From Hygrophila difformis (taxonomy: Eukaryota > Streptophyta > Magnoliopsida > Lamiales > Acanthaceae), in NCBI GenBank assembly GCA_030278955.1, contig JAOANR010000003.1, positions 17,817,050 through 17,881,049 on the forward strand: a stretch of DNA of 64,000 nucleotides, given 5' to 3'. Numbering within the stretch: position 1 is the first letter of the stretch; each line of letters opens with the position of its first letter. This document shows, piece after piece, positions 5,544-48,362 of this stretch. Both the position numbers and the translations under genes were made by a program. A model generated the notes under the pieces. The model worked only from the letters and a program-made list of their open reading frames with translations, searched no databases and had not been told where the DNA came from.

Positions 5544-5574
5544 GAAGCAAGTGGTGCCCCAAGCAGAAAAGGAT

Positions 5575-7065: not shown

Positions 7066-7118
7066 CGCGCAAGTTTGTCTTAAAATGCTAATCAGACAAA
7101 ATGCGCGAGGGGGGCATC
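7066..7118 (+). promoter_or_regulatory. conserved hairpin plus polypurine tract, copy 1
   Basis: An almost perfect inverted repeat (7066-7080 with 7094-7107) is followed at once by the purine run GAGGGGGG (7107-7114) and then by the LTR at 7119. The same block is found at 25013-25065 with essentially one base change. The purine run is the expected primer for plus-strand DNA synthesis. The hairpin is an additional conserved structure. Confidence 0.75.
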
Positions 7119-7676: not shown

Positions 7677-7677
7677 G

Positions 7678-11384: not shown

Positions 11385-11406
11385 GTTTGTTAGGGGCTTT
11401 TGATCC

Positions 11407-12191
11407 TGTTAACATAGTAAAAATATATTAAGCTCAATGGAGTTGCTCGTCTAAATTAATTGGCCCAATTGGGTAAAATATATCCGGAAAAGGGAGGACG
11501 TGTCTCCAAAAGCCCATATCCGGAAGAGGGAGACGCGTCTCCAAAAGCCCAGATGAAAATATATCCGGAAGAGGAAGGCCGTGTAGACAACAGCCTGGAT
11601 GGAGGCCCGAGATGATGGAGGCCGTCGTGACGATGGAGGCCCGAGAGATGATGGAGGCCGTCGTGACGATGGAGGCCCAAGAGATGGTGGAGGCCGTCAT
11701 GACGATGGAGGCCTAAGAAGTGATGGAGGCCGTCGTGACGATGGAGGCCCGAGATGGTGGAGGTAACCCCATGATGGAGGCCCAGAAAAGTTGAATGGAG
11801 GGTTTAGGTAACCCCATGATGGAGGCCGCCTTTGATGAGTGTGTCAAGATCAAAGCGAATCCTCAAATTCGGAAAGCGTATCGGGCGAAGGTGTCGGATA
11901 AGGAAAGAAATCTTGGCAAAACGCCCGGACAAGGAAAGTGAGCCAAGAGGTTGAGGACGCCCCACCACTATAAATATGAACATAGGCATCGTGAGCAGAG
12001 CACCCCGAATCTTCTCCTCAGAGAGTCTTTATTTTACTTTTCTGCTTTCCTGCATTTTTTACTGCTTTTTGTTCTTCAATTCCTTTACTGCTTTCATTCA
12101 ATTCCTGTACTTTTCTATTTTTCTCTGTAATCTTTCCCCAAATTTCATTAATAAAAGAGAGATTCCATTCTCCCAAATTTCACCGTTAACA
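11407..12191 (+). mobile_element. 5' LTR of Tat copy 2
   Basis: 785 bp. A TATA box TATAAATA lies at 11969-11976 and an AATAAA at 12150-12155. It differs from the 3' LTR at two positions I can find: G versus A near 11760 and G versus T near 12069. The unit GATGGAGGCC recurs about ten times between 11597 and 11830. Confidence 0.95.
11597..11770. repeat. tandem GATGGAGGCC repeat inside the LTR
   Basis: Four imperfect copies of a roughly 40-45 bp unit built on GATGGAGGCCGTCGTGAC alternating with GATGGAGGCCCGAGAGAT. They sit upstream of the LTR TATA box, where enhancer-type repeats are common in retrotransposon LTRs. The same array is at 25256-25429 in the 3' LTR. Confidence 0.8.
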
Positions 12192-12194
12192 AAT

Positions 12195-12212
12195 TGGCAC
12201 GCCCAGTGGGAC
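12195..12212 (+). other. primer-binding site of Tat copy 2
   Basis: TGGCACGCCCAGTGGGAC begins three bases after the 5' LTR. The TGG start, complementary to a CCA-ending tRNA, is as expected for minus-strand priming. I could not assign the tRNA species from the sequence alone. Confidence 0.7.
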
Positions 12213-12244
12213 TCGATTCAAGACCATATCTGCTTCAGAAGTGC

Positions 12245-15200
12245 ATGCGTCTTAGATCCGGACGAATCGTTACTGATCTAACACAAGAATTCGAGAACAT
12301 GTCTCTGCAAGACCAAACAGTCCAGCGCACATTGGATGAGGACGCCGGCGAGACGGCGAACATCGCCTCACCACAGCAGGGGATAATGCAGATCCCTACT
12401 ATGTCGGAACAAATGCGGCTATCGATAACCGAATCGATGGCCGAATTTATGCCTTTACTCACAAGGCACTTGATGGATGTCTTGCGGCCTGCCATGGCCG
12501 ACCAGACCAGCCAGATATGCGGTTCCCTACGCGATGGAGGCCTCCCATCAAGTTCTACCATGGCACCTAACACGCCATATCCGGGACCGTCAGGAGGACA
12601 ACACCGAATGTGGGGAAACACACTGGGTCACCCATCACTCCATGACTCTGGAAGCGTGGCCAGTATGTTTCCACAGTCATACCAGTACACTTTTTCTACA
12701 GCGGCACCCAGCATGCCGAACTCGAGCTACGCGGCACCTCCCATGCCGGTATACGTCCCGTCAAATCCGTTGATGGCAACCAGTGCCACACCAGGCTGCA
12801 TGGCGGCCGGACCAAGCATGGCACCCAGACAGGCGGCACCTCAGATGCCGAACATCCCCACTGCACCACATATGGCGGCTCCTCTCAACCCGGGTTGGGT
12901 GCCACCAACCCTAGGGGGGCAGGCTACCCAGACAGGTGGAGTGATGGCGGCCCCTATGGTGCAGGCCGCCACCCCTATCCCCGCGGCACAGGCCGCCACT
13001 CCTGTCTACACAGGAGGACACGCTCCACAACCATATGGAGCACCCCCGACACCTGCTGCTGCGATGCCTCCTACGCAGGCACCAGTGGTTTCACCAGAGC
13101 TGCTCGCGGACATGATGCAGCAGCACTTCGGAATCCAGTTAAAGCCGATGGAGCGGCCTACGTACCGGAAGCCATATCCGGATTGGGTAGACACCATGCA
13201 ACCCTATCCGAGGGGTTTCAAGATGCCGGACTTCACTTCCTTTTCGGGAGATGAGGGCAAATCTACAGTGGAACACATTGGGAGGTTCACTGCCCAATGC
13301 GGGGAAGCAGCGGCCAATGACTGGCTGAAACTAAGACTGTTCAGCTCCTCTCTCACCGGACCTGCTTTCGCATGGTTTGCATCGTTGCGGCCTAACTCAA
13401 TCCAGAATTGGGCTGATCTCGAACGGGCATTCCATGATAGGTTTTACACTCCGCTATCTCAGGTAAGCCTCGCTGATCTCACTAATGCTAAGCAGCATGC
13501 CGATGAGGCGGCAAGCTCTTTTATTGGTAGATTACAACGGCTGAAAGGCCGATGTTCCATAGCAATTCCTGAAAAAGAAATAGCCAATATTGCAGTGGCT
13601 AACATGTTACCAAAACTAAAGGAGCATTTAATTGTGCAGGATGCAACTGACCTTGCCCAGCTGGCCGAGAGAGCGGCTCGCTTGGAAAAGTTCCTGGAGG
13701 AACAAGAAGGAAGACGTCCTATACGTCGAGTCCACTTCGAGGAAGTGACACTCAGCGACGAGGAGGACGAACCAGTGGAAGTGGCTATTGCAGAACTAGT
13801 CCAGATAGCCAAGCCACACACCTGTGCTGCCCTTAAACCACCTAGACAAAGGGAAGCCAAGTATAAGCCCGAAGAGGACCTGTTCGACATGAGCAAGGCA
13901 GACCAAGTATCCGATGCCTTACTCAAAGATGGCTTAATCAAGCTGCCTGAGGGGCAGAAGTTACCAACGGCCGAAGAAATTCGGGGCCGATCGTTTTGTA
14001 AGTGGCATAACTCATATACGCATAGCATTACCAAATGCCGGAGCTTTAAAACTGCCATACAAAATAAGATTAAAGAAGGGCGTTTAAAAATTGCAGGCAT
14101 GAAAGTGGACTTAGATCCGTTTCCACAACTTCGCGTGGGTGCGGCTGGACTTGTTCCAAACCCAGATGATGGCGGCTCCAGTAGCCGGATGGACCAAGAA
14201 GGGGAGCGTGTTGAAATCGATGAACAAGATGACGACCTATTATCAGATGAATCTGACACTGAGAAAGAAAGAGAAAAGCAACTGTATAGCAAGCAGCCCA
14301 GGTTCAAACACATGTCTCAAGAGGACTTTGCAAGAGTTCTGAAAGCCGAAGAGAATGAATACCAGAAAAGGGAGAATCCTCCTTTGAGGATTGAAATCCC
14401 AAAACCTGCTGTGGAGGTCCGCGACAACGGGGAGCATCAACCTGCTACTAGGGATTACAGACAAAGAGTGGAGGTGATACCAACCTTAATGAGGCGTCCA
14501 GAACACCCTGCTGAAGCTGATAGATGGATGCGGAACCGGGCAGGAGGTAAGACCATTCAAAAGGAGCCGCCACCCATGACGAGGAGTCAGTACAGACGAG
14601 CTCAAAGAAGGTATGCCGAGGAAATGCGGCAGTGGGAAGCTCAGGTCCATAAGTTGGAGTCGTCTAAGCCCCGAAAACCAGTACAACCAACTTACTTCAG
14701 ATCTCAAGGGGAAACATCCGAACGGCGGAGGCCTATCCACGAGAGATTGCAGCATCCGGATGGGAGACCTCTGTACATCAGGTATAGTCCCCCCGTACCA
14801 CTTCGAAAGCCGGTGCATGAGCGGCTGGGAGATTATAGGGGAAGGTCTAATGAGGCCTCAAGGAGGCCACGTTCACCATCACCTCCCTCCAGGAGACCAC
14901 CATCTCCACGAAGGAGACAGTCACCATCATCTCCCTCCAGGAGACCACCATCTCCACGAAGGAGACATTCACCATCATCTCCCTCCAGGAGACCACCATC
15001 TCCACGAAGGAGACATCCACCATCACCTCCCACCAGGAGGCCAGTTCGGGAAAGGCTTCAATGGACGGAGCGTCGCCATCCAGCGCCCCAACGCGAAACC
15101 ATGGAGACTAGGTCCGCTCAGATAAAGAAACAACCTTCGTCTGCTAGGGACAAGGGCAAGGCGGCCGTCGTGGCTGAATCAAGTAAAGGAAGTGAACCTT

Positions 15201-16483
15201 GGGCAGAAAAATTCATGGAGAGGTTTAGTCGCATGGGTGATCCGGGGTCAGCTAGAGAAATGGCTATGATGAAGGTTCTCACCAGGTTCTTTGCTTACAT
15301 AGCGGCCCATCAAGACGGGAAACTGGGGAGCGAACCCGACAGCTACGAGGGGTTCCTCGCTTATTGCAAGAGTGTAGACGAACCCAAACAGTCAGAAATG
15401 GAATCTGGAGTTCAGACAAACAGTGAAGTTACACGAGTCCGCTTCGGGGCGGTCACTCCCGAAGATGTGGAAGCGGCCATGGGGGCTGACCAAGAAAAGC
15501 CTAAAGTCGGCATTAGCACGGTAGGTGTCATTACGGAAGATCTCGATATGTTGGACAACATGGAACTCGATGAGGAAGCCAACATGGAGGGTGAGCTAGA
15601 CAACTTGGATGAAGCTTTCTGGGTCGGTTTGGAAGAGGAACTCAAGGAAGCAGGCTACAAGTATGATCAAGAAGAGGAACCATCAGACCCTGTGGTGCCT
15701 ATGCAAGTCGTGGGATTGGCGACGGATGAGGAAGTCAGTGATGCAGAGTCTGAGATATGGGACGAAGAAGAGCCGTCGTTCGCCAAGCTCATCGAGGAGA
15801 TGGATGAGATGATAGCAGAACTCTCTCATCCAACCAGAAATCTATTCGAAGAATTAAGTGGCCAGCTTGTTCAAGGGCCAGTGCTTCCACAGTTCGCCAA
15901 ACCAGAAGTGTATCAAACCAGGCAGTTGAAACCTCTGTATATCAAAGCTCACATTGATGGGCGGCCGGTGAGTAGGGTATTCGTCGACAATGGGGCAGCA
16001 GCAAACGTGATGCCAATGTCCACTTTGAAGAAGATCGGCAAGAGTGAGAAGGACCTCATCCCCACCAGGGTCAGGATGTGCAGCTTTGTGGGAGAAGCTA
16101 CTCAACCAGCAGGATTCATAACAGCCGACGTCACTGTAGGGTCCAAGACGATCAAAGTGGCCTTCTTCGTGGTAAAGTCAAAAACTTGCTACTCAGTATT
16201 ACTAGGACGCGATTGGATTCACATGGCACAATGTGTGCCATCCACCTTACACCAACAGTTGCTTATCTGGAATGATGATCAAGTGGAACTCGTGGAAGCA
16301 GATCCTCAGCCCTTCATAGCACACGACCGCAACAACGATGAGGCAGTCTTCTACTTAGAGGATGTCCAGCCAGCATCGGCTTTGATTGGTGTGAACTTAG
16401 ACTTCGAGTCCATCGACTTCACTTCCAGCGGCTTCAAGCTACATCCGGCCGGCCCGAATCCTCAGACTCCACATGATGAATAG
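12245..16483 (+). CDS. gag-protease polyprotein (ORF1)
   Basis: A protein of about 1412 residues starting at the ATG at 12245 (MRLRSGRIV), a typical short basic Gag start for this clade; the frame is open slightly further upstream without ATG. The first 300 residues are rich in Pro, Ala and Met. The retrotransposon Gag core is at about 324-485 (PDFTSFSG, AFHDRFY). A Cys/His cluster (CKWHNSYTH) is near 584. An Arg/Ser/Pro repeat lies at about 872-932, then an acidic stretch. The aspartic protease is at about 1225-1370, with FVDNGAA as the active-site loop and LLGRDWI near its end. It supplies capsid-like and processing functions. It ends in the overlap ATGATGAATAG with pol, which lies in another frame. 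It is intact. Confidence 0.93.
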   Translation: MRLRSGRIVTDLTQEFENMSLQDQTVQRTLDEDAGETANIASPQQGIMQIPTMSEQMRLSITESMAEFMPLLTRHLMDVLRPAMADQTSQICGSLRDGGLPSSSTMAPNTPYPGPSGGQHRMWGNTLGHPSLHDSGSVASMFPQSYQYTFSTAAPSMPNSSYAAPPMPVYVPSNPLMATSATPGCMAAGPSMAPRQAAPQMPNIPTAPHMAAPLNPGWVPPTLGGQATQTGGVMAAPMVQAATPIPAAQAATPVYTGGHAPQPYGAPPTPAAAMPPTQAPVVSPELLADMMQQHFGIQLKPMERPTYRKPYPDWVDTMQPYPRGFKMPDFTSFSGDEGKSTVEHIGRFTAQCGEAAANDWLKLRLFSSSLTGPAFAWFASLRPNSIQNWADLERAFHDRFYTPLSQVSLADLTNAKQHADEAASSFIGRLQRLKGRCSIAIPEKEIANIAVANMLPKLKEHLIVQDATDLAQLAERAARLEKFLEEQEGRRPIRRVHFEEVTLSDEEDEPVEVAIAELVQIAKPHTCAALKPPRQREAKYKPEEDLFDMSKADQVSDALLKDGLIKLPEGQKLPTAEEIRGRSFCKWHNSYTHSITKCRSFKTAIQNKIKEGRLKIAGMKVDLDPFPQLRVGAAGLVPNPDDGGSSSRMDQEGERVEIDEQDDDLLSDESDTEKEREKQLYSKQPRFKHMSQEDFARVLKAEENEYQKRENPPLRIEIPKPAVEVRDNGEHQPATRDYRQRVEVIPTLMRRPEHPAEADRWMRNRAGGKTIQKEPPPMTRSQYRRAQRRYAEEMRQWEAQVHKLESSKPRKPVQPTYFRSQGETSERRRPIHERLQHPDGRPLYIRYSPPVPLRKPVHERLGDYRGRSNEASRRPRSPSPPSRRPPSPRRRQSPSSPSRRPPSPRRRHSPSSPSRRPPSPRRRHPPSPPTRRPVRERLQWTERRHPAPQRETMETRSAQIKKQPSSARDKGKAAVVAESSKGSEPWAEKFMERFSRMGDPGSAREMAMMKVLTRFFAYIAAHQDGKLGSEPDSYEGFLAYCKSVDEPKQSEMESGVQTNSEVTRVRFGAVTPEDVEAAMGADQEKPKVGISTVGVITEDLDMLDNMELDEEANMEGELDNLDEAFWVGLEEELKEAGYKYDQEEEPSDPVVPMQVVGLATDEEVSDAESEIWDEEEPSFAKLIEEMDEMIAELSHPTRNLFEELSGQLVQGPVLPQFAKPEVYQTRQLKPLYIKAHIDGRPVSRVFVDNGAAANVMPMSTLKKIGKSEKDLIPTRVRMCSFVGEATQPAGFITADVTVGSKTIKVAFFVVKSKTCYSVLLGRDWIHMAQCVPSTLHQQLLIWNDDQVELVEADPQPFIAHDRNNDEAVFYLEDVQPASALIGVNLDFESIDFTSSGFKLHPAGPNPQTPHDE
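14860..15040 (+). repeat. 48-bp tandem repeat encoding an Arg/Ser/Pro-rich stretch in Gag
   Basis: About three and a half copies of a 48-bp unit, with phase points at 14893, 14941 and 14989, encode RRPPSPRRRHSPSSPS-type repeats. The composition resembles RS domains of splicing factors. It lies between the Gag Cys/His cluster and the protease. Confidence 0.88.
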
Positions 16484-19400
16484 CCAAGACATATATAGAG
16501 ATTTGCTGCAGCGGCTCGCCACCACTGAGATGATGATGGGTGCCGAAGACAAGTCTAAGAGTCTAGCTGATACAAGGCCATCTGAGTGGCCATCCCCTGT
16601 GAAGCGGACATTGCCTAGTCCGGAAGCTAAGGAACCCCTTGTGGACATCAACCTTGGAACTGATGCAGAGCCAAAACTCACCAAGGTAAGCGCTTCATTG
16701 CCCGAGGAGGAGCGGCACCAACTAGTGGAGCTGATCCAGAAATACAAAGACTGTTTTGCGTGGCAGTATACAGATATGCCAGGATTGTCAAGAGAACTGG
16801 TGGAGCACAAGTTGCCAACCCATCCTGAGTTCAGACCTCACAAGCAACCACCTAGACGTTTTGATCCAGACACCATCCCAAAGATAAAGGCCGAGATTGA
16901 AAAGCTTCTTAGAGCAGGTTACATTAGAACGTGTCGCTATGTAGAGTGGCTTGCAAATATTGTACCTGTTGTGAAGAAAAATGGTCAATTAAGAGTCTGT
17001 ATAGATTTTAGAAATTTAAACTTGGCTACACCTAAGGATGAGTATGTAATGCCTATGGCCGATATGCTTGTCGATGCGGCCGCCGGCTACAAATTTTTGT
17101 CATTAATGGATGGTTATTCTGGATACAATCAAATCTTCATTTCTGAATCTGATGTACATAAAACTGCTTTTCGTTGCCCAGGACCAGTCGGCATCTTCGA
17201 ATGGGTGGTCATGCCTTTTGGCTTGAAGAATGCCGGAGCAACATATCAAAGGGCCATGAACATGATTTTTCATGATCTAATTGGCCACACACTTGAAGTT
17301 TACATTGATGACATCGTAGTGAAGTCATGTGAATTCGGCCAGCACTTGGCCCATCTAGAGAACGCATTCATTCGAATGAGGCAACATGGATTGAAAATCA
17401 ATCCAGCTAAGTGTGCCTTCGGAGTGGCAGCAGGGAACTTCTTAGGTTTCCTTGTGCATGAAAGAGGTATCGAGGTAGATCACAACAAGGCCAAGGCCAT
17501 CTTAGAAGCCCGCGCGCCATCTAACCTCAAAGAACTACAATCACTGATTGGCAAAATCAATTTCTTAAGAAGATTCATTGCTAATGCGGCTGGGAAGATG
17601 AAGGCGTTCACTACCTTACTTAAAGGAAGAAAGAACGAGATATTTTCATGGACAGCCGAGCATCAAGCGGCCTTCGAAGAAATAAAGAAAGCGTTAAGCA
17701 ATCCTCCAGTACTAGTACCACCAAGGCAGGGAATACCTCTAAAGCTATACGTGTCAGCCTCCGAGGAATCCATCGGATGTCTACTTGCACAAGATGATGA
17801 AGATGGCAGGGAAAGGGCTATCTATTACCTCAGCAAAACCCTACAAGGACCAGAGGTAAGATATACTGCATTGGAGAAACTGTGTTACGCTTTGGTATAC
17901 TCCTGCAGTAAATTGGAACATTACATGCTACCAAGAACAGTCCAAGTGGTAGCTCCATTCGACTTGGTAAGAACACTCCTGCATAAGCCAGCACTGAAGG
18001 GTCGCCAGGCTAAATGGGCTATGAAGATTAGTCCCTTCACCCTGGTGCACGTCCCTCAAAAAGCTGTCAAAGGACAAGCCTTAGCTGATTTCCTAGCCCA
18101 GCATCCCTCATTAACAATACCAGAGGATCCCAAAGAGGCGTCCTTCATCGGATTTGAGCCTTGGGAATTGACCTTTGATGGATCTTGTGCGAGTAGCGGC
18201 TCCGGAGCCGGCATTACGATCACTAGCCCTTTGGGACAACATTGGAAGCTCGCTCGAGAGCTGGAACCGGGCACCACCAACAATCAAGCGGAGTATGAGG
18301 CTTTAATATTTGGCCTGGAGACAGCATTACTCAAAGGTGCGAAATCCATTACCATTTTTGGAGACTCCGAGGTCATCCTAAAACAACTAACAGGAGAATA
18401 TGAATGCAAGAGTCCGAGGCTAGTCAAGTGCTACGAGACAGCATTGGAACTCTTATCCAAATTTTCGGATGTTACCATCACCCACATTCCTAGAAGTCGA
18501 AATCAAGAGGCTAACGAAGCCGCCCAACTGGCTTCAGGCTGGCAGTCTAGTCGCCCTAGGGGGGCACCATGCATTGCCGCCATCACGGATGAGTCTGGAG
18601 ACCAAGGAGGAGTACACCCCCAACATCCCAACGATGACTGGAGGACTGAAATCACACGATACCTCGAGGACCCGTCGTCTGGAGGGGACAGCTCGCTAAA
18701 AATCAAATCTTTACGATACACACTGATAGATGGTGAGTTATTCCGAAGGGCGGTCGATGGATTACTGCTCAAGTGTATAGGTCCCGAGGAGGCGAAGTTG
18801 GTAATGGGAGAAGTTCACGAGGGGATATGCGGCTCCCATCGAGCAGGACCTAGCATGAGATGGAGTATTCATCGTCATGGCTATTTTTGGCCAACCATCA
18901 TGGAAGACTGCATCGTCTATGCCCGAGGTTGCGAGGCTTGTCAGAAACATGGGCCAATTCAGAGAGTGCCAGCGGAGGAATTACACACAGTCATCAAGCC
19001 TTGGCCATTTCGTGGCTGGGGGATGGACATCATTGGAAAAATTCACCCGCCGTCGTCTAAGAACCACACATTCATACTAGTGGCCACTGATTACTTTACC
19101 AAATGGGTGGAAGCATGGCCAATGAGGAAGATAGATCAAAATGATGTAATTAAGTTCGTAACTGAGCTCATACATCGATTTGGGATTCCTCAAACAATCA
19201 CTGCGGATCAAGGAACTGTATTCACCGGCGAGAAGTTCTTAGCTTTTGCCAGACAATTCGGGATTCGCGTATACCACTCCACTCCGTATTACCCCCAAGC
19301 AAACGGTCAAGCGGAGGCCACCAATAAAATCTTGATAAGTATGATCAAGAAGGCGGTAGGTGAGAAACCAAGGAAGTGGCATGAGGCTATGGTGGAAGTC

Positions 19401-19892
19401 CTATGGGCTTACCGGAATGCTAAGTCTACCTCCACTGGCTTCACACCATATTACCTGACATATGGTCATGACGCCGTTCTGCCTTTGGAGATCACGGTCC
19501 CTTCTCTAAGGGTGGCCCAACAGCATCACCTAGACTTAGCTGAATATGAAAAGGCCATGGTGCAAGAGTTGGAGACAGCAGATGGCGACGAGCTTACCGC
19601 TCTGGAAAATATCCGTCGCCAAAAGATGAGGATGGCGAGACACTATGACAAGAGAGTTCGAGGCAAAACCTTTAGCGAGGGAGACTTAGTATGGAAGGTG
19701 ATTCTACCCTCGGGAGTGCGAGACAATGAGACAGGCAAGTGGTCTCCAAATTGGGAAGGGCCGTTCATTGTCACGCAAAGGTTGATTAATGGTGCATACA
19801 AACTAATGGATATTGATGGTCAAGAACATAAACAAAGCATAAACGCAAAATATCTCAAAATGTTCTATCCGTCAGTATGGGAATCTGAGTAA
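16473..19892 (+). CDS. pol polyprotein: RT, RNase H, archaeal-type RNase H, integrase (ORF2)
   Basis: 1139 residues, intact. Reverse transcriptase lies at about 120-320, with CIDFRNLN, MPFGLKNAGATYQR and the catalytic YIDD near 276. Ty3-type RNase H covers about 390-540. A second, archaeal-type RNase H is at about 565-690 (FDGSCAS, NNQAEYEAL, GDSEV), diagnostic of the Tat clade. Integrase follows, with an H-H-C-C zinc-binding region near 780-815 and a core with D near 851, D near 912 and E near 948. It starts at ATGATG overlapping the stop of ORF1 by 11 nt, in a different frame. Termination-reinitiation or frameshifting would be needed if both are made from one RNA. Confidence 0.96.
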   Translation: MMNSQDIYRDLLQRLATTEMMMGAEDKSKSLADTRPSEWPSPVKRTLPSPEAKEPLVDINLGTDAEPKLTKVSASLPEEERHQLVELIQKYKDCFAWQYTDMPGLSRELVEHKLPTHPEFRPHKQPPRRFDPDTIPKIKAEIEKLLRAGYIRTCRYVEWLANIVPVVKKNGQLRVCIDFRNLNLATPKDEYVMPMADMLVDAAAGYKFLSLMDGYSGYNQIFISESDVHKTAFRCPGPVGIFEWVVMPFGLKNAGATYQRAMNMIFHDLIGHTLEVYIDDIVVKSCEFGQHLAHLENAFIRMRQHGLKINPAKCAFGVAAGNFLGFLVHERGIEVDHNKAKAILEARAPSNLKELQSLIGKINFLRRFIANAAGKMKAFTTLLKGRKNEIFSWTAEHQAAFEEIKKALSNPPVLVPPRQGIPLKLYVSASEESIGCLLAQDDEDGRERAIYYLSKTLQGPEVRYTALEKLCYALVYSCSKLEHYMLPRTVQVVAPFDLVRTLLHKPALKGRQAKWAMKISPFTLVHVPQKAVKGQALADFLAQHPSLTIPEDPKEASFIGFEPWELTFDGSCASSGSGAGITITSPLGQHWKLARELEPGTTNNQAEYEALIFGLETALLKGAKSITIFGDSEVILKQLTGEYECKSPRLVKCYETALELLSKFSDVTITHIPRSRNQEANEAAQLASGWQSSRPRGAPCIAAITDESGDQGGVHPQHPNDDWRTEITRYLEDPSSGGDSSLKIKSLRYTLIDGELFRRAVDGLLLKCIGPEEAKLVMGEVHEGICGSHRAGPSMRWSIHRHGYFWPTIMEDCIVYARGCEACQKHGPIQRVPAEELHTVIKPWPFRGWGMDIIGKIHPPSSKNHTFILVATDYFTKWVEAWPMRKIDQNDVIKFVTELIHRFGIPQTITADQGTVFTGEKFLAFARQFGIRVYHSTPYYPQANGQAEATNKILISMIKKAVGEKPRKWHEAMVEVLWAYRNAKSTSTGFTPYYLTYGHDAVLPLEITVPSLRVAQQHHLDLAEYEKAMVQELETADGDELTALENIRRQKMRMARHYDKRVRGKTFSEGDLVWKVILPSGVRDNETGKWSPNWEGPFIVTQRLINGAYKLMDIDGQEHKQSINAKYLKMFYPSVWESE

Positions 19893-20031
19893 GAAACATG
19901 AGTACATCCAAAGTGGCCAATCACAAGTTCGGCCAAAAAGTAGCAATAATATCCCAAAGCAAAAAGCAGAAACTGCCCATCACAAGGCCGATGGGCTGAC
20001 CCAGAAGTGTACTGAAAATCAGTGCTAGAAA

Positions 20032-23000
20032 CTAAACGGGAGGCTGCGTCCCATCGCCCAATATGCGCCGACGCATGAGGGCCCATCGATCACGGGTACG
20101 CCCAAAAATATCCGTCAGGCGACGAAGGGCGGCTGCGGAAGCGCGAGCACGAACGGACAGTCGAAGCCGACGAGTCCGAACTCCCGACAACTCAGTCGAT
20201 AAATCGCTCTCGTCGGCGGCTAAGCGATCGTAGGCAGTCTCCACCTCAGTAGCTCGGGAGGAGATGTCGGCTAAGGCAGGCTCCAGTGAAGCTAGCTCCT
20301 CCCTAGCTCCCTGAATGGCGCTCCTCCTCTCCAAAATGATCCGCTCTGCCTCCTCAATGTCGTGCTCTGCTCGTGTAATAAACCCCTCAAGATGGGATCT
20401 GCGGCTCTCTCTAGCTTCGCGATCAACAATCAGCTGATCGCGCCGGGGGCGGAGAACATCCATCTGGGAACAAAGGTCACGATGTCGCGCCTCGAGGTCA
20501 TCAAGCAGCGTCAGCTCCTGGGCGGACTGATCCGCAGAACTGCTATAGGCAGGATAGGCAATGGATAGGTCAGAGATGAGCTCTGAGAACCCAAGGAAGT
20601 CAGCATCCTCAGCAAATGCAGGAACTGCAGCAACATCATCCAGCAGGCGATCTAGACTAGAAACCACCTCGGTGGAAAGGAGATCGGTATGGGTGGACAA
20701 GAGGCGGTCGAACGCCTCGCACGACGAACTAATAACTCCATCAACCGAGCCGGGTACCTGAGGACCAGAAGTCAAGGAGGTCACCGGAATCGGGAGAGGA
20801 ACCGCGGGTACCTGAAGGTAGCGTCACATGAGTATATGCGAAGAAAATCTTATAACCGTGCAAGCTGAAATGAGACGTACCAGAGGAGGCAGCACGACCG
20901 CATCAGCCGAAGTAATAGGAGCAACAGTAGTAGGGCAACCCGCCTGATCTAGGGGAGTCTGGAAAGGGAGATCTTTAGAACATGTCCTTCAGGAAGAAAA
21001 CAAGAGGTGACATAAATCAGTAGAGAATACCTGAGGAGTCGCCGAAGGGTCAGTCTGAATAGTCTCGGAGACGCGGTCTGCAGTCTGAGTAGTATCTGCA
21101 GGAAGCTGGAGGGCGAAGATTCTCAAAGCACCTAGTTTAATCAAAATATGAATAGGTGAAGACGCAACTCAAAAATACCTGAGAGGCCAACGTGTGGTCA
21201 GCTAAGCCAATTGCATCATTTGTCCTAGGGGGATGTGGATCCATCTGCACCAACCAAGAGGAATGTTGTTACAATATCAGAAGCAATAAAGAGTAAAAAT
21301 CTAAAATAGAGAAACATACCTGATCGGCAACAGTAGTCATAGGATCATCAGTGCCAGTCGCCGTGGCACTAGTCTGATACCTAGGATCATCATGGCCATG
21401 AAGAATGATGTAGTCGGCACGGGCTAACATCTCCTCCGTAGACTCAGAAGATCTACCTAAAGAAGAAGAATACCAGGCATCGACGGCCACAGGAACGTCA
21501 TCAATAGGGTCATCCGCCTGGCCGCAATCATCTGCAGTCTCTGCAGGATCATCAGACTCATCCTCCTCATGCTCGTCGTCGTCCATGTCACCCGCATGAC
21601 CCTCCTCACCAGAATGTGCCTCCTCGTTGCTAGAACTCGTCTCCTCCTCGTCCGAACTAGAACTCCCGTCACTAACTGGAGCATCCTCGTCACTCGCCTC
21701 ATCATCAACTGTGGACAGAAAAACAATGTTTAAGTACCTGCGTAAGATATACAATATGGATCGGAAAATAGAGTCTGACGTACCTCTTCGACGCTTACGG
21801 GAAGAAGAAGTGTCCGCAGTGCGGGATCGCTGTGAGGATGAATCACGCAGCGGACCTCCAAAACGGGACGTAAGCTCATTATGCAGCGGCAAAATAGAAG
21901 TGACGTAGGGCGTCCACCACGCCATAAAGCCGGCAGCGAGTGACCACGTAGGAGTAAAGGGCAAATAACTGGAATGCGTCAAGCGGGGCAAGGAAGCCAG
22001 TATCGCCGTAATCGCAGCATCCGTAAGTGTCAGTCTCGCGTCACGGCTAAAAGGGGCAGGCCATATCACTCGGCGAGGAAGCCCGAGGTGGCAACCGAAC
22101 TGACGAGCTAATAACTGAGGGCAGTACGGCTCAGCTGTATGTGGAGGAAGCCCGCTCAAGAGCATATGAGGCTTCATACTAATATTCCATGTGTTCTCTC
22201 CGTAAAGGCCGTGCGGCCGGTCGGGCCTACATAGAAGAAGGGAGAGCAATCGGCCAATGGGGGCATACACGTAGAGGTCATGATAGGATGGCCGATAATG
22301 ATAACACCAACGGATGATCCTCAGACCATCCCATCGTAGGAGGGTGTCTCTGCTAATCCTCACTGAATCGGCGGCCAATATCCTACCTAGCGGAAGACCA
22401 TCTGTCACATCCCTCGGACCAGGGCGAGATACACGGACAAACAACTGGGGAAAGTACAACTGGACCCATAACTGCAGAAACCAGAATGGTCCGAAAGCCG
22501 TGGTAGCAGGATCCCGTCCACTAGCTAACATGCCAGACGCCTTGGCCATGCCACTGAATAGGGTGCCAAGGAAATAGGAGCCCGTAGCTCGAGACTCCGG
22601 ACTCATAATAGCTAGAACGAGAGGGAGGGCAGTGCGCAAAACGGTGCGAGCACTAGTGCATATGATGAATCGGCTAAACCACATCAAGAGGAAAGCCACA
22701 TGCTCATCCCGTGTAGATGCAGAATCTACTGTAGTCATATTATGGTCAATATATGGCGCATATCGTCTGGCAAACTTGCCCGGAGGACAAATGGAGGAAC
22801 CAAGTGCGGGATCGTCAACACCCGAATGTGTAAGCTCGGCTCCATCTATGCGAAGTCCTGTGATCATCGCGACATCGAGAAGAGTAGGACCAATGAAGCC
22901 GCAAGGGAACTGGAAAGCGTTGACCGAAGAATTCCAAAAACCCATCAGATAATAGATCAAGCGGTGATGTACTACTACTGGCCTGGTAGAAAGTGTGATA

Positions 23001-24274
23001 GCCTCCTCAATACCCCAGGCAGCCCACTCAGGAGCACGACCACTCATCCTCTCCATCCATGCAATGTACTTGCCCAAATTACTATCATCATCACCGTTGA
23101 CCCTCGAGTTGGAAGCAGTAAGGCCACTCCGGTGAGATCGAATGGCCTTAGTCTGAGACACAAAGGCAGTCGTAAATGAAGCTTTAGTAATCGGAAGACG
23201 GCATGATAAAAAATCCTTGGCTACATCCGCGTGTGCAGTCGTGCTATGAAACGGCCGCAAATAAGGCTCCGACTCACGACGATCAGCAGCGGGAAACTCG
23301 TCATCAGAATCCGGAATAAGCGGACTCTGTAAAGCAAACAACCGGGATTAAACAACCGGGATTAAACGACGAAGACAAAGGCCACCTTAAAAGAGAGGAT
23401 AAAGCAAAATGAACCTGAGTCGTGGGGAAGCCGAAGTGGCGGCCTGGAAGGGGTTTTGGACGCTGGCAGTGGCGGTCTGATTGTTTAAGGAAGGGACGGA
23501 TCTGGCAACATCCTATATCACGAAGGTTCAGAGGTGAGCCACTATGAGGTAAACCTGGCGAACCTAGACAAGCTTGTTGAACCTAAGGAAAGAGTTCAAA
23601 ACCTGAAAAGCCATGCCACGAGACGACGAAGCAGCAAACCCTGTCAAGGGAGTGGCGGCCAGGGCGGATGAAATGGCGGCCTGAATTGATGGGACTGGAG
23701 GCCCCTGAGTGGCGGCCGATGATGATCCGGATGAATGGTGAGTGGCGGCCTGAGCCAAGGGAGTGGCGGCCGGAGTGGTGTCGTCTACTAGATCCTATGT
23801 CATGAGCAAAGTGTGGAATAACTAAAGAAGCGACACTAGGTTAGCTAAGTCCTATGTCATGGTAGGCTATGTTCTCTAAATCCTATGTCGAGATCATGAG
23901 AGGCAATAACAAGAGATAACTGGTCTAGCTAGAATCAGTTCTATATCAAGGTCATGCAACGACAAGACAAGGTAGAGACAAGTGATCTAGCTAGAATCCT
24001 ATTTCTATGTTATGTCAAAGTCATGCCATGGAAAACAAAGTGGAGACAAGTGGTCTAGCTACCAACAAGTGATTTAGCTGGAATTCATGTTATCAGAAAT
24101 ACATGTCCAAATCGCTATACATGTACAAATTTAGCAAGATCAACAGAGACAAGTCGGAAATTCAGTTCCACATCTACCATGTATTTCAGAAATGCCAAAA
24201 TATTAACGCATGTGATAGGCCTCCACCAAAGTAGACATCAAGACAAGGGAGCATATGGAACTTACCTCATCCAT
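20032..24274 (-). CDS. antisense eight-exon plant-mobile-domain gene carried by Tat copy 2
   Basis: Coding exons inferred from GT-AG sites and comparison with copy 1: 24266-24274 (MDE), 23603-23794, 23415-23512, 21320-23326, 21179-21244, 21031-21105, 20881-20958 and 20032-20811. Apart from exon 3, all joins are phase 0. The 669-codon exon 4 holds the plant mobile domain (PMD): AITLSTRP, LIYYLMGFWN, GPTLLDVAMITGL and FLLMWFSRFI. It then has a basic RKRRRG stretch and a long acidic tail. The last exon is predicted coiled coil. PMDs occur in MAIN/MAIL-type nuclear proteins and in transposons; the role here is unknown. Exon 3 is 98 nt, against 99 in copy 1, so conventional splicing shifts frame before the PMD. 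The gene converges on pol, with the stops 140 bp apart. Confidence 0.8.
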
Positions 24275-24860
24275 GATGAGGATGGCGGCCTGGACACCTG
24301 GTGGCGGTGGCGGCCTCGACTTCCGGTGGCGGTGGCGGCCTCAACTCCAGACGCGATGGCGGCCTCCGATGCTCGAGAGAGTGGCGGTCTCCAAGCCCTC
24401 GAGGATGGCGGCCCTGGTGAGCAGTGGCGGCGGCCCTGACGAGCAGCGACGGCGACGGCGGCCCTGGCGAAACAGGTGGTGGCGGCCCTGAGCTTCGTGG
24501 ATGGCGGCCTTCCAAGGCTCGAGAATGGCGGCCCCAAACCACCTGAAGATGGCGGCCCTGGCTCCCAAGGCGAATGGCGACGGCGGCCTTCAGGGCACGA
24601 CGACGGCGGCCCTCCTGTCGATGGCGGCCCTGGCAGCGGCGGCGGCCCTGGCAGCGGCGGCGGCCCTGGCAGCGGCGGCGGCCCTCCTGTCGCGAACGAA
24701 GGCGCGCTCGAATGGTGGATGGCGGCCTTCGGGTGAGGATGGCGGTCGTGAGGAGCAGCGACGGCGGCCTGCGGAGATGATGCTGGCGGCGGCCGGCGGC
24801 GAGCGAGACGGCGGCGGGCGCCCGGGGAACGGCGGCGGCGGCCAAGAGAGGAGGAAGAGG
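24275..24860. repeat. GGCGGCC-rich leader block, copy 2
   Basis: GGCGGCC and variants recur dozens of times (for example three perfect repeats of GCAGCGGCGGCGGCCCTG near 24630-24680). It lies between the candidate TATA box at 24921-24930 and the first coding exon of the antisense gene, so it would form most of a roughly 600-nt GC-rich 5' leader. The motif resembles the ERF-type GCC box only loosely. Confidence 0.85.
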
Positions 24861-24920
24861 AAAGAAAATTTGGGAGGTGAGTTGGGTTTGGAAACTTTCC
24901 AAATTTTTGAGATGGAAGAG

Positions 24921-25006
24921 TATTTATAGGGCTAGGGTTTTGCCCTATTGGGCCTTAATGGGCCTCAAAATTCCAAACCCTAGAATTAGAGAATTCCAAA
25001 CCCTAG
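24921..25006 (-). promoter_or_regulatory. cellular-type promoter of antisense PMD gene
   Basis: On the minus strand a TATA box CCTATAAATA (24921-24930) is preceded by a telo-box AAACCCTAG (24932-24940) and two site II-type motifs (TGGGCC on the plus strand at 24949-24954 and 24960-24965). Two further AAACCCTAG copies lie on the plus strand (24975-24983, 24998-25006). Telo-box plus site II is a known pairing in promoters of plant ribosomal-protein and cell-cycle genes. Activity is inferred, not shown. Confidence 0.65.
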
Positions 25007-25012
25007 AATTAG

Positions 25013-25065
25013 CGCGCAAATTTGTCTTAAAATGCTAATCAGACAAAATGCGCGAGGGGGGCATC
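25013..25065 (+). promoter_or_regulatory. conserved hairpin plus polypurine tract, copy 2
   Basis: The inverted repeat 25013-25027 / 25041-25054 abuts the purine run GAGGGGGG (25054-25061), then GCATC-type spacing to the LTR at 25066. It is nearly identical to 7066-7118 although the flanking LTRs of the two elements are dissimilar. Confidence 0.8.
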
Positions 25066-25850
25066 TGTTAACATAGTAAAAATATATTAAGCTCAATGGA
25101 GTTGCTCGTCTAAATTAATTGGCCCAATTGGGTAAAATATATCCGGAAAAGGGAGGACGTGTCTCCAAAAGCCCATATCCGGAAGAGGGAGACGCGTCTC
25201 CAAAAGCCCAGATGAAAATATATCCGGAAGAGGAAGGCCGTGTAGACAACAGCCTGGATGGAGGCCCGAGATGATGGAGGCCGTCGTGACGATGGAGGCC
25301 CGAGAGATGATGGAGGCCGTCGTGACGATGGAGGCCCAAGAGATGGTGGAGGCCGTCATGACGATGGAGGCCTAAGAAGTGATGGAGGCCGTCGTGACGA
25401 TGGAGGCCCGAGATGGTAGAGGTAACCCCATGATGGAGGCCCAGAAAAGTTGAATGGAGGGTTTAGGTAACCCCATGATGGAGGCCGCCTTTGATGAGTG
25501 TGTCAAGATCAAAGCGAATCCTCAAATTCGGAAAGCGTATCGGGCGAAGGTGTCGGATAAGGAAAGAAATCTTGGCAAAACGCCCGGACAAGGAAAGTGA
25601 GCCAAGAGGTTGAGGACGCCCCACCACTATAAATATGAACATAGGCATCGTGAGCAGAGCACCCCGAATCTTCTCCTCAGAGAGTCTTTATTTTACTTTT
25701 CTGCTTTCCTGCATTTTTTACTGCTTTTTGTTCTTCAATTCCTTTACTTCTTTCATTCAATTCCTGTACTTTTCTATTTTTCTCTGTAATCTTTCCCCAA
25801 ATTTCATTAATAAAAGAGAGATTCCATTCTCCCAAATTTCACCGTTAACA
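25066..25850 (+). mobile_element. 3' LTR of Tat copy 2
   Basis: 785 bp, the same length as the 5' LTR, with a TATA box at about 25628-25635 and AATAAA near 25809. It is followed by the target duplication GATCC at 25851-25855. Confidence 0.95.
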
Positions 25851-26001
25851 GATCCTTAACAGTTAACACTAACCTTTATCATTGTCCTTATTTTGTACAA
25901 ATATGGCATAAAATGTCCATTGATTTCTCTGTTCTAATATGTGGAAAATGCATCTGACCATAGAGAGTAGTTCAATCATTTAGAAATCCCTCGACAACTA
26001 C

Positions 26002-32686: not shown

Positions 32687-33475
32687 TTAGTTCCTCATGG
32701 AGGATACAAGACTCTTGGGGGAATACCCCATAATTTTACAGACTTGAAAGGAAATATGCAGAAAGAGAAATATTACAAATACTTTGAAGAGTTGGGAGGA
32801 ATTTTCGATTTCCGGAAACCCTGGTGATGTAGTATGAACAGATGCTAATGCTCCAAAGTCATACCACTTTCGAACCTCTTCTGGTTTCGATCCTTCGAGC
32901 ATCCATACCCTGTTGTATCTCCCGGATGTCTCGATTACTGTTTTGCTAGGGTTAATTCCCTTTTTGGAAACCAGTTGTTCCCATTTTCCTTGGTAGTCCA
33001 GCCAGGCAGTAGATAGGACCTTCTCGTCTGAATTAACCTTAGAGGTGCCTGTCATTGGCCTAAGGTTAATTTCTTCCTCTTTCACCCCAGAGGCAGTGGG
33101 TTGACTTGAGCTTTCGGAAATGTGACTTTCCTCTTGCTCAACATTTTTGTCGGTATCCGACAATGGTTCCTTTGAAGCAGTGCTTGAATCTGCTTCTTCA
33201 TATGTGACCACTTTAGCTTTTTGGGCACATTTCTCTTTGTTTACCAGGGAAGCTGACGCTTTCCTGATTGGCTCTAATACTGTTTCCCATAGTGCTGTCA
33301 TTGCTATATGGGAGGTTCGTATATTGTTGCGGACCATGTCCACATCGCTCTGTTGTATTTGGCCAGCTGCTTGTGCATTGATCTCGAGCTGTCCAAAATG
33401 CTTCGATAGCTCCTCTAGGTTTTCTCTGAGGTGCCTGAATCTCGTAATGATGGAATCAGCTTCAAATGCTTCCAT
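32687..33475 (-). CDS. last pararetroviral ORF, possible transactivator/inclusion-body protein
   Basis: 262 residues, overlapping the end of the RT ORF by 14 nt, in the position of the caulimovirid transactivator/viroplasmin gene. The N-terminal 90 residues are helical (IITRFRHLRENLEELSKHFG). A Ser/Glu-rich low-complexity section follows, and the segment near 195-225 (GRYNRVWMLEGSKPEEVRKW) recalls the RNase H-like fold found in such proteins. The C-terminal 40 residues are hydrophobic and look unrelated, so the true C-terminus may be lost or altered. Function is assigned by position only. Confidence 0.55.
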   Translation of the reverse strand: MEAFEADSIITRFRHLRENLEELSKHFGQLEINAQAAGQIQQSDVDMVRNNIRTSHIAMTALWETVLEPIRKASASLVNKEKCAQKAKVVTYEEADSSTASKEPLSDTDKNVEQEESHISESSSQPTASGVKEEEINLRPMTGTSKVNSDEKVLSTAWLDYQGKWEQLVSKKGINPSKTVIETSGRYNRVWMLEGSKPEEVRKWYDFGALASVHTTSPGFPEIENSSQLFKVFVIFLFLHISFQVCKIMGYSPKSLVSSMRN

Positions 33476-35522
33476 CTCTCGTTAGGAAATCTGCAAGAAC
33501 ATTTTCATGAGATTTTATAACATCAATATCATAAGTATAATATTGACATTCAGCTTGCCATCTGATAATACGAGCTTTTTCAATTTTTGATTCAAGTTTA
33601 TTTCTTAAAAAAGCCCTAACATTAGTATTATCAACTTTTAATACAAATTTCTTTGCAAGTAAGAATAAAGGCCATTTTTTAAATGTTTTCCATACTGCAA
33701 AGAATTCCTTTTCGTTAATATGCCAAAGTTTGGCTTGTTGTTCAGTGAACAACCCTCCTGTGTATCTACAAGGTTCTTGACCCGTAGTTGTTTTTCTCAT
33801 GAGCACTCCTGCCCATCGAAAATCATTGGCGTCTGTGTAGACTACCAGCTCATCCTCATCCTGAGGTATCGCGAGTTTTGGCAAGCTATTGCAGACTTGC
33901 TTTAGTTTACGAATTCTCTTGGTATGGATTTCTTCCCATTTCCATCTAGAGCTTTCAGTCTCTTTCAAGAGTGGTCTAAAATCCTTTCTATATTTTGCAA
34001 GGTCTTTAATAAACATACCCGCAAAATTTACAACTCCTAAGAAACTCTGAAGTTGTTTCTTGTCTTTTAATGTATCAGGAAAATTGCGGATTTTCTCCAC
34101 AATGTGTTCCTGTAACTCTATTCCTGCTTCATCAATTTGAACTCCTAAGAATTCAATTTTGTTAGCAGCGATAGTGGCCTTTTTCTCAGAGAGAACTAGA
34201 CCTTCCCTGTGACATGCATCAGAAAATATTTCAAGATGTTTAATATGCTCTTTAATATTTCGAGATGCAATCAGAATGTCATCTATGTAGACGAACATAA
34301 ACTCTAGATAATCCTTAAATAGATTATCCATCTTTCTTTGGAATATCTGAGGGGCATTAGAAAGCCCCATTGGCATAACATTCCAAATATATTGCCCTTG
34401 TGGGGTGGAGAATGCTGTGAATTTTTTCGACTCATTCTCCATCTTGATCTGATAGAAACCAGATTTGCAATTAAATTTAGAAAACACTTTAGCACCTTTG
34501 ATGCAATCAATTAAGTGTTCTCTACTCGGAATGTAATAACCATCAAACTGTATTATTTTGTTAATACCTTGATAGTTTATTACCAACCTGGGTTTACCTC
34601 TCTTTATTTCACCGTAGTTTCTTACCAAGAATCCAGGGCTACTATAAGCTGAGACTCCAGGCTCGATGAGTTTAAGATCAATATGCTCCTTGATAATTTG
34701 CTGCATATCTTTCTTATCCTGCATATTCATTAAGATGGGTTTGTATCGAACATACTCATATTTATATTGTTCTTTTACCTGTAGAGTAGCTTCGATCTTG
34801 TTTTTATCCCACCATGCCAGAGGATCCTCGTTAAAGTTTCTCTGGATAAGTCTTTTGACATTTTCGAGGGACAATTTAGTTTCCCCATCAATGTCTAGTG
34901 AAGTTATATTTAATGACTTCATTTCCTGCATTGCTTCTTTGAGGTTTATAATTTCCTCAATAGAAGCTTTATCAAATCCTTGTTGTCTAAAAGACAACAA
35001 AGCCTTACCAAACTTTCTTTTATCCTGCATTTTTGGATGGGTTAGTTTGGCATCATTATCACCACGTTTGCTGCGAAATAATATAGGCATTAACCTGTTG
35101 AATGCCTTTTCTCTGCGCAACACCTGTATCTCATTTCCACAACTTGTGGTAAATATTAACAAATTTCTTTTGTTATCTTGAACATATTTTGTAAAGGATT
35201 GTATAAAATTGTTCCCTAACAAAATATCTGCTCCTGTGTCATGAAAGTAAATAGGAGGCGTTTTTACCTTATACCAAGGTGTACCAAATGCTCCTCCAAT
35301 CATGATATTGGCTTGTCGAATACCCTTATTTAGTACTAAGATTTTTTGGGAAAAATCTCTTCCTGCAATAATGGGTAATGATTCCATAGCTTCGCTAGGG
35401 AAAACTCCTGGTTTTGCCGTGCAAATACCTGATCCTGAATCAATATAAGCTGCAAAATATTCTGACTTATATTCTTCATATATTATCCCTACTGAGATAT
35501 AAATGGAGAATGGACTTGTCAT
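33462..35522 (-). CDS. pararetroviral protease-reverse transcriptase-RNase H
   Basis: 686 residues, open. An aspartic protease lies at the N-terminus (active-site YIDSGSG near residue 28, and DTGADILLGNNF near 95-105). Reverse transcriptase is central, with FSKFNCKSGFYQIK, MGLSNAPQIFQRKMD and the catalytic YIDD. RNase H is at the C-terminus (VVYTDAND). Domain order, lack of an integrase and length fit the caulimovirid pol protein. The start overlaps the stop of the movement-protein ORF by 4 nt (ATGA). Confidence 0.92.
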   Translation of the reverse strand: MTSPFSIYISVGIIYEEYKSEYFAAYIDSGSGICTAKPGVFPSEAMESLPIIAGRDFSQKILVLNKGIRQANIMIGGAFGTPWYKVKTPPIYFHDTGADILLGNNFIQSFTKYVQDNKRNLLIFTTSCGNEIQVLRREKAFNRLMPILFRSKRGDNDAKLTHPKMQDKRKFGKALLSFRQQGFDKASIEEIINLKEAMQEMKSLNITSLDIDGETKLSLENVKRLIQRNFNEDPLAWWDKNKIEATLQVKEQYKYEYVRYKPILMNMQDKKDMQQIIKEHIDLKLIEPGVSAYSSPGFLVRNYGEIKRGKPRLVINYQGINKIIQFDGYYIPSREHLIDCIKGAKVFSKFNCKSGFYQIKMENESKKFTAFSTPQGQYIWNVMPMGLSNAPQIFQRKMDNLFKDYLEFMFVYIDDILIASRNIKEHIKHLEIFSDACHREGLVLSEKKATIAANKIEFLGVQIDEAGIELQEHIVEKIRNFPDTLKDKKQLQSFLGVVNFAGMFIKDLAKYRKDFRPLLKETESSRWKWEEIHTKRIRKLKQVCNSLPKLAIPQDEDELVVYTDANDFRWAGVLMRKTTTGQEPCRYTGGLFTEQQAKLWHINEKEFFAVWKTFKKWPLFLLAKKFVLKVDNTNVRAFLRNKLESKIEKARIIRWQAECQYYTYDIDVIKSHENVLADFLTRDGSI

Positions 35523-45902: not shown

Positions 45903-45946
<44 letters not shown>

Positions 45947-47240: not shown

Positions 47241-47242
47241 TA

Positions 47243-48295: not shown

Positions 48296-48362
<67 letters not shown>

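Follow-up and report, generated by a model that had tools for sequence, protein, structure and literature searches.

Is the intron-containing gene that a plant retrotransposon carries on its minus strand a stray piece of host DNA, or is it a working part of the element? The question is raised by an element in the window analysed here (64,000 nucleotides of Hygrophila difformis DNA from contig JAOANR010000003.1), in which such a gene sits between pol and the 3' LTR. The two LTRs lie at 11407-12191 and 25066-25850 (both plus strand); they are 785 bp long each, differ from one another at 2 positions and have a 5-bp target duplication at either side (GATCC at 11402-11406, preceding the 5' LTR, and at 25851-25855, directly after the 3' LTR), and this copy of the element is a recent insertion. 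Its plus strand has a gag-protease ORF at 12155-16483 (Retrotrans_gag and gag-asp_proteas profile matches) and a pol ORF at 16401-19892 with reverse transcriptase, RNase H, a second RNase H and integrase, whose profile matches lie in the order RT_RNaseH 446-546, RVT_3 592-710 and Integrase_H2C2 795-851. A second RNase H between RNase H and integrase is the arrangement of angiosperm Tat (Ogre/Retand) elements according to Neumann et al. (PMC6317226), and by this domain order the element is classified as a Tat-type Ty3/gypsy LTR retrotransposon. It also has the plant mobile domain (PMD) extra ORF, a trait typical of Ogre that does not define Ogre alone and that Neumann et al. 2019 (PMC6317226) report for 57% of the Ogre group. 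The gap of ~270 bp between gag-pro and pol of Ogre (average 274 bp, same authors) is absent from the window element, and because that gap is only an average and the two ORFs overlap here, we did not file the element as Ogre. Of two antisense ORFs of the element that were scanned, neither had the Retand marker Transposase_28 (PF04195); the only matches were to PMD and, weakly, to a coiled coil. A hairpin (25013-25054) that is nearly invariant in five sequences from three families immediately precedes the putative polypurine tract.

A sequence-only reading of the window had described the minus-strand gene as having eight coding exons. That a multi-exon gene lies between pol and the 3' LTR is confirmed, with splice sites conserved in relatives (below), and the exon count is corrected to nine, the difference perhaps arising because the first exon codes for only three residues. 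On the minus strand these are exon 1 (24274-24266, ATG GAT GAG, which includes the start codon), exon 2 (23794-23603), exon 3 (23512-23415), exon 4 (23326-21784), exon 5 (21708-21320), exon 6 (21244-21179), exon 7 (21105-21031), exon 8 (20958-20881) and exon 9 (20811-20032, the C-terminal part and stop codon). The E4/E5 join is the one that is not in phase 0 (it is in phase 1), as had been predicted for a single join, and exon lengths in copies of a sister family in the same genome agree. The profile search proposed as a check of the exon 4 ORF found PF10536, the plant mobile domain, with E = 1.3e-25, and the outcome that had been named as a refutation, a search with no such hit, did not occur. 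Exon 4 ends with a basic patch (SSSRKRRR) and exon 5 is acidic and serine-rich, a succession present in the window copy and in all 8 sister copies read; exon 9 gave the weak coiled-coil match only. An AlphaFold2 (single-sequence) model of exon 4 had a mean pLDDT of 36 and was not used. At 98 nt, exon 3 of the window copy exceeds the 93 nt of all nine sister copies, so its join to exon 4 at the first acceptor AG is out of frame unless a second AG two bases beyond (a tandem acceptor) is used, and owing to this it is uncertain whether the window copy still makes the full protein. A longer N-terminus read through the GGCCGCC leader (below) was considered and rejected, as it has an in-frame stop before the start codon and no ATG between; earlier acceptors for exon 7 (by 26 bases) and exon 8 (by 28 bases) were likewise rejected, since the exon lengths are then not divisible by three. 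The convergent pol and PMD genes are separated by a non-coding spacer of 139 nt (19893-20031) whose identity is 83-86% in four pairs of sequences drawn from three families, and our guess is that 3' processing signals may lie within it.

Are these splice sites retained in relatives of the element? The window contains a decayed older relative, clipped by the window edge (13-7120), which has the same antisense gene layout with 6 stops in the aligned exons. Its splice dinucleotides are conserved at 16 of 16 positions (background 104/220 for GT and 137/231 for AG), though the introns themselves are only 49-68% identical between the two copies. In the sister family all eight GT-AG introns are present in 9/9 aligned copies, with 144/144 dinucleotides kept. 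Splice-site conservation exceeds chance, and both the GT-AG introns and the survival of antisense introns through retrotransposition, as proposed in the sequence-only reading, hold in these copies. Splicing at the sites predicted from the window leaves a single uninterrupted frame in seven of the nine sister copies (1,085-1,090 codons, stop codon counted) and a broken one in the other two; the sister copies are the best-scoring matches listed, and the intact fraction is thereby biased upward.

The promoter motifs that had been claimed are present. The minus strand has a TATA box at 24923-24928, a telo-box at 24933-24940 whose position is common to the sister family, and two site II elements at 24949-24964 (starts 24949 and 24959); two further telo-boxes (starts 24975 and 24998, within 24975-25005) are not in loci L011-L013 nor in the older copy. 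Promoters of the site II/telo-box class are typical of translation and growth genes. The block is alignable and conserved in 9/9 sister copies (telo-box in 8/9, at least one site II element in 9/9 and TATAAA in 8/9); in the promoter region of the older copy the telo-box/site II block is absent and only a TATA, at 6802, was found. The presumed leader (24275-24895, minus strand, 5' end approximate) contains 21 GGCCGCC copies in one orientation, and there is no ATG in its 621 nt before the start codon, a modest depletion (P 0.036). The corresponding counts in the older copy, 1 in 555 nt (P 0.11) and 2 in 701 nt (P 0.06), are not significant, and an upstream ATG is absent from 5 of 7 measured sister leaders. 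One-orientation GGCCGCC arrays are kept in the antisense leader across three families; their spacers change and the motif stays.

Is the protein, and not only the splicing pattern, maintained? Between the window and older copies dN/dS is 0.228 (0.190-0.273) over 1,056 codons (the wrong frames give 1.10 and 1.29), between the window copy and three sister copies it is 0.214-0.217, and among sister family copies its median is 0.35 (21 pairs). Exons 7 and 8, of about 25 codons each, give ratios that approach or exceed 1 in some pairs, the maxima being 2.9 for exon 8 (versus the older copy) and 1.8 for exon 7 (versus L012). Indel runs between the window and sister copies are multiples of three in 191 of 201 exonic cases versus 44 of 232 intronic ones, although these are not independent. 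The ratios point clearly to purifying selection on the PMD gene.

The capture of a cellular gene by this element, as suggested in the sequence-only reading, would make it a recently acquired host MAIN/MAIL-type gene that came with its introns and promoter as a passenger. This would suit the ordinary plant-gene look of the locus (introns and a growth-gene promoter), and the PMD family does have host members. However, the same intron set is found in three diverged families, and the synonymous divergence between the window copy and the sister family is 1.07-1.10 for the PMD gene and 1.15 for pol, values near enough to indicate that gene and element evolved together. In a tree of 33 PMD sequences, a set that does not include Ikeda's reference sequences, the Gypsy group is separated from the rest with 100% support. 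The domain is open throughout in the host-like loci L001-L003 and interrupted by breaks in the MULE-related group, whereas the PMD exon of the antisense gene is uninterrupted with all introns outside the domain; this intron layout was not seen in any non-Gypsy PMD locus examined, none of them a proved MAIN/MAIL orthologue. On these comparisons a recent host capture is not supported, appears largely refuted and is to our minds extremely unlikely. Its exons, introns and promoter are found again in the sister family, where most copies checked are intact, and the antisense gene thus seems to belong to the working equipment of the element and not to be stray host DNA. The idea of a neutral relic, an old hitch-hiking insertion with no present function, draws on the 6 stops of the older copy, the exon 3 frame problem and the two broken sister copies; the selection measures, the intact sister copies and the conserved promoter block and 3' spacer speak against it, and we judge it very unlikely.

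Alternatively, the antisense transcript and not a protein could be what functions, by forming double-stranded RNA with genomic RNA The full-length sense RNA must cross the entire antisense gene, so sense/antisense overlap is expected; such a dsRNA option was considered by Vicient and Casacuberta (PMC7264820), and in tea plant 175 phasiRNA loci were reported at PMD genes, the majority with very limited expression (PMC10673657). Codon constraint, exon indels that are mostly in threes and a frame of more than 1,080 codons that is open in 7/9 sister copies nevertheless require a protein function, and a role of the transcript by itself seems quite improbable.

We consider it probable, instead, that this Tat-lineage family keeps a true antisense accessory gene with its own promoter, eight introns and a regulatory protein product of ~1,080 residues. 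The alignments establish, at the level of sequence, the structure of this gene, its conservation, selection on it, a history in common with pol and a conserved core promoter. The TATA, site II and telo-box promoter just inside the 3' LTR would drive minus-strand transcription, predicted from its promoter class to occur in dividing cells, and the RNA, with a long leader without ATG, would lose eight introns to encode one protein in which a short N-terminus is followed by the plant mobile domain, a basic patch that resembles a nuclear signal, an acidic serine-rich stretch and a probably helical C-terminus. In genomic RNA the introns would be on the wrong strand, so the spliceosome should leave them in place and every new copy should inherit them. 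The protein is presumed to be nuclear and, by analogy, is most likely an accessory that acts as a nuclear regulator or against silencing; it may plausibly have a part in silencing, helping the element to escape it or to tune it, perhaps in competition with host MAIN/MAIL-type PMD proteins. A narrower proposal, that it is an element-specific anti-silencing factor, made in dividing cells under a growth-gene promoter, that binds the GGCCGCC leader arrays and keeps the element transcribable, strikes us as unlikely. If true, a GGCCGCC-binding PMD protein would rival the PMD silencing of the host and be the retrotransposon counterpart of VANC, a kind of protein that VANDAL transposons encode and that goes with motif arrays. 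PMC11728184 mentions aORFs of Vandal elements that give protection from de novo silencing.

How does this gene compare with known systems? PMD genes in Ogre/Tat elements have been published, as the sequence-only reading noted, and so have antisense accessory genes that are served by a promoter of their own; the conserved multi-exon anatomy of the antisense PMD gene was not found in the literature searched. The Gypsy-encoded proteins of the PMD-A clade (PMC5418596) and the PMD proteins of Ogre eORFs (PMC6317226) likewise have PF10536 and come from Tat/Ogre-type Ty3/gypsy elements. Neumann et al. (PMC6317226) considered single ORFs with a minimum length of 250 codons, whereas the window gene has nine exons, and Ikeda et al. 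(PMC5418596) verified the TE association by running Fgenesh on the genomic DNA that surrounds the domain; the available portions of these two papers contain no antisense-gene intron map, promoter or selection test. The host silencing proteins MAIN and MAIL1 (PMC5418596, PMC7156037, PMC9899485) have their domain family in common with the window gene, and the MULE-type PMD loci, in which the domain is broken, fall in a different tree group; in six loci of the genome the PMD gene has a MULE transposase opposite to it. The DOWN motif of MAIN/MAIL1 targets (MORC1 instance, at most one mismatch) is absent from the element and has one match in the window, which is below chance. Exon 9 has no significant similarity to the last predicted exon of locus L016 (E 0.76). 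No relatives were found in IMG/VR (with the exon 4 protein, pol or a four-row alignment), in a set of 5.8 billion proteins (7,998 best candidates scored) or in GTDB genome contigs, and the PDB gave no match at E up to 1; these sets seem poor in plant DNA, so the negative results have no bearing on plants at large.

Antisense genes in a like position are known from other elements. The Grande-type gene aORF-3R (2013 study, via the review PMC7264820) is likewise on the minus strand in the interval from pol to the 3' LTR, as the window gene is, and has its own upstream promoter and a nuclear product; that review notes no clear database similarity for such proteins, whereas the window gene has a PMD match, and the word intron is absent from it. 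The Retand antisense aORFs (Vicient 2025, PMC11963269), found in all representatives of 63 clusters with at least 10 copies, have the position and orientation of the window gene, but carry TRP28 (Transposase_28, PF04195) where it carries PMD; their definition demands an ORF that reaches 600 bp and would leave a multi-exon gene untraced. Single-ORF surveys can overlook much of such genes. The direction of PMD descent, from element to host or the reverse, was left open by Ikeda et al. 2017 (PMC5418596), and the present gene bears on whether host PMD silencing proteins derive from elements or vice versa. Gypsy PMD genes have been known for more than 10 years, with full proteins, selection and expression unsettled in the literature searched; a gene of nine exons that has a conserved promoter and occurs in intact copies makes exact junctions, start and stop available for testing. 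It also suggests a route by which a retrotransposon can keep a spliced gene, namely by placing it on the strand whose introns go unrecognised in the genomic RNA. The HBZ transcript of HTLV-1 is itself spliced, and we know of no homology between HBZ and the antisense PMD gene. HBZ, named in PMC11963269, is nonetheless a similar case, an antisense accessory gene whose product is a nuclear regulator, in a different host kingdom and a different type of element.

The antisense gene of the young Tat-type Ty3/gypsy element has an intron-bearing structure that is conserved among related elements, is under selection and shares its history with pol. Its position, in minus-strand orientation, is between the end of pol (stop at 19,892) and the 3' LTR; tracing by splice signals, frame and homology gave nine exons, from 24274 down to 20032, and eight GT-AG introns of 69-90 nt, except for the first, which is 471 nt. 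The sequence-only reading had proposed a multi-exon gene with GT-AG introns, which stands; its count of eight coding exons was close and one short, and its statement that all joins but one are in phase 0 is correct for the nine exons. Exon 1 is only ATG GAT GAG, followed by a GTAAGT donor. The large antisense ORF, which holds exon 4, had been called a plant mobile domain (PMD), and it does match PF10536 (E 1.3e-25). The exon ends in SSSRKRRR, found in the window copy and in 8/8 copies of a sister family of Gypsy elements elsewhere in the genome (copy L030 lies outside this set). There follow an acidic, serine-rich exon 5 (D+E about one third), three short exons in phase 0 and the final exon, for which Pfam gives no more than a weak coiled-coil match. 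This layout reads like that of a nuclear regulator, a localisation and activity that we infer from the predicted protein.

The LTRs of the element (11,407-12,191 and 25,066-25,850; 785 bp each, with a GATCC target duplication) differ at 2 positions, which would date the insertion to about 0.1 million years ago if a plant rate of 1.3e-8 substitutions per site per year is assumed. Its gag-protease and pol ORFs are both open, and pol has RT, RH, extra RNase H and integrase, the Tat order. A hairpin at 25013-25054 (DNA fold -12.5 kcal/mol, z -4.0) adjoins a putative polypurine tract and hardly varies among five sequences from three families. The non-coding spacer between the convergent pol and PMD stops (19893-20031), which by eye holds a short inverted repeat, is 83-86% identical in four pairs from three families, despite near-saturation at synonymous sites.

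A diverged older copy at 13 to about 7,120 carries the same antisense gene in decay; by BLAST pieces it is 79% identical to the element over the pol end and gene end and 72% over the PMD part. It keeps 8/8 donors and 8/8 acceptors, whereas other GT dinucleotides are retained at a rate of 47% (104/220) and other AG dinucleotides at 59% (137/231). In exons 2-9, aligned over 1,056 codons (16 gapped codons skipped), the differences from the window gene at the three codon positions number 208, 166 and 414, and dN/dS is 0.228 (bootstrap 0.190-0.273), compared with 1.10 and 1.29 in the wrong frames. The 6 stops within its aligned exons are expected, since the insertion is old.

The PF10536 search of the genome (915 Mb, 246 contigs; the window is at 17,817,050-17,881,049) scored 117 of 3,306 first-look candidates and listed 146 matches. 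The sister class, grouped by profile range 1-346 and scores of 111.9-116 bits, makes up 33 of these, 32 of them stop-free, and ten of the 33 were fetched (L011-L014, L029-L034). Pol is convergent and downstream of the PMD gene in all four copies where it was sought (L011-L014), with 89-91% amino-acid identity, and exon 4 of these copies is 64% identical to that of the window. Apart from L014, whose exon 2 match lies ~4 kb off and which was left out of the intron count, all 8 introns are present in 9/9 sister copies, with GT/AG at 144/144 sites. When the nine are spliced at these sites, seven stay open for 1,085-1,090 codons, stop codon counted; the exceptions are L030, whose frame changes in exon 4, and L034, which has an internal stop.

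The antisense gene of the window gives dN 0.233-0.239, dS 1.07-1.10 and dN/dS 0.214-0.217 against three sister copies; within the sister family the median dN/dS is 0.35 (21 pairs of the seven intact copies). For pol, window against L011, dN is 0.046 and dS 1.149 (962 codons). The similarity of the two dS values, each of them rough and close to saturation, indicates that both genes have shared one history from the split of the families onward. Judged from these substitutions, the antisense protein is truly under selection, though less strongly than pol. Indels in multiples of three account for 76/84 exon runs among sister copies and 191/201 between window and sister, as against 95/431 and 44/232 intron runs (pairwise counts, hence not independent). 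Exons 7 and 8 by themselves, each ~25 codons, show no constraint in some pairs (exon 7, window against L012, dN/dS 1.8; exon 8, window against older copy, 2.9).

The promoter motifs proposed from the sequence were also borne out: on the minus strand of the window copy there are two site II elements, a telo-box, TATAAATA and then a pyrimidine-rich stretch. The block is alignable in 9/9 sister copies, with the telo-box intact in eight (altered in L032), at least one site II in all nine and TATAAA in eight (TATAAG in L031). The promoter region of the older copy has neither telo-box nor site II, only a TATA at 6,802, which shows that not every copy has this promoter type. ATG is absent from the 621-nt window leader, where a Markov model predicts 3.0 (P 0.036); the leader of the older copy contains one in 555 nt (P 0.11) or two in 701 nt (P 0.06). 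Among seven sister leaders (L031 and L032 left out), five are ATG-free and the other two contain 1 and 2. The leaders also hold GGCCGCC arrays, which we take to be GCC-box-like: 21 in the window (24275-24895), 23 in the older copy (5546-6800) and 11-25 within the 850 nt preceding the start in the nine sister copies, in a single orientation in 11/11 leaders and never in the opposite one. Counting both orientations, the motif occurs 4 times in the window's 38 kb from 26,000 on and 7 times in the 7.7 kb gag-pol of the element. The window copy's LTRs carry a related array, GGCCTCCATC x10; neither the LTR part of the older copy nor L011-L013 on their LTR side has any such array.

Is the gene a captured host gene? 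The odds of a recent capture are low and rest on the shared introns and dS. A PMD tree was built from 33 sequences over 145 columns, excluding L030 and the older copy; five of its rows cover just 46-55 columns. It sets the Gypsy group apart with 100% support, and the nearest neighbour of that group is L016. The L016 PMD gene (3477-7378 of that locus), the nearest non-sister one, is 28.7% identical to exon 4, and the window's pol is unmatched in its 9 kb. A possible host relative of the Gypsy form, L016 is predicted by eye to have an uninterrupted PMD exon, followed by short repeats at 149-bp spacing that are probably exons, and a separate last exon. The host-like PMD genes L001-L003, none established as MAIN or MAIL, have the whole domain open. 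In MULE-grouped loci the domain is broken near profile positions 64-81 and 181-240. Flanking ORFs were Pfam-scanned at nine PMD loci: a MULE transposase lies on the opposite strand to the PMD in six (L017-L020, L022, L025), a PPR gene adjoins the PMD in L027, and those of L016 have no Pfam match. The flank of L010 is gag on the older element's side. The layout of the six loci parallels the antisense PMD of the retrotransposon.

Elsewhere in the window, a probable MULE (45025-59965; inverted repeat arms 45025-45468 and 46185-46356 against 59292-59965) contains a minus-strand transposase ORF (55149-57347), a plus-strand ORF that is Ulp1-like by eye with no Pfam match (53953-54480) and 167-bp tandem repeats (51781-53082). 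Minus-strand ORFs at 32687-38234 are the remains of an endogenous pararetrovirus, one matching caulimovirus-type protease and RT/RNase H and another a caulimovirus coat domain (just below cut-off) and zinc knuckle. A gene is duplicated at 7675-9850 and 40068-41465 (~91% identical), and the ORF of the latter copy matches DUF2828/DUF7788.

The family almost certainly has a real, selected, spliced gene, which would be transcribed from the conserved promoter and whose product would act in the nucleus. That it regulates or evades silencing is a tentative proposal, somewhat short of an even chance; host PMD function is treated in PMC7156037 and PMC9899485. The window copy itself might equally well still make full protein or have ceased to.

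PMD in Gypsy elements has been described by Steinbauerova et al. (as cited in PMC5418596 and PMC9289625), Ikeda et al. 2017 (PMC5418596) and Neumann et al. 2019 (PMC6317226), and Retand elements were surveyed by Vicient (PMC11963269). Going by their method passages, exon structure is untraced in the Neumann and Vicient surveys because of ORF-based cut-offs (getorf, at least 250 codons, and ORF Finder, conserved ORFs of at least 600 bp, respectively). Among the matches listed from open-licence PMC full text, outside which lie most subscription papers, including those on Grande and by Steinbauerova, we found no intron-bearing antisense gene in plant LTR elements. Antisense accessory genes with their own promoter are known, as in Grande gene23 (via PMC7264820), and Vicient and Casacuberta urge in the same article that antisense and spliced transcripts be examined.
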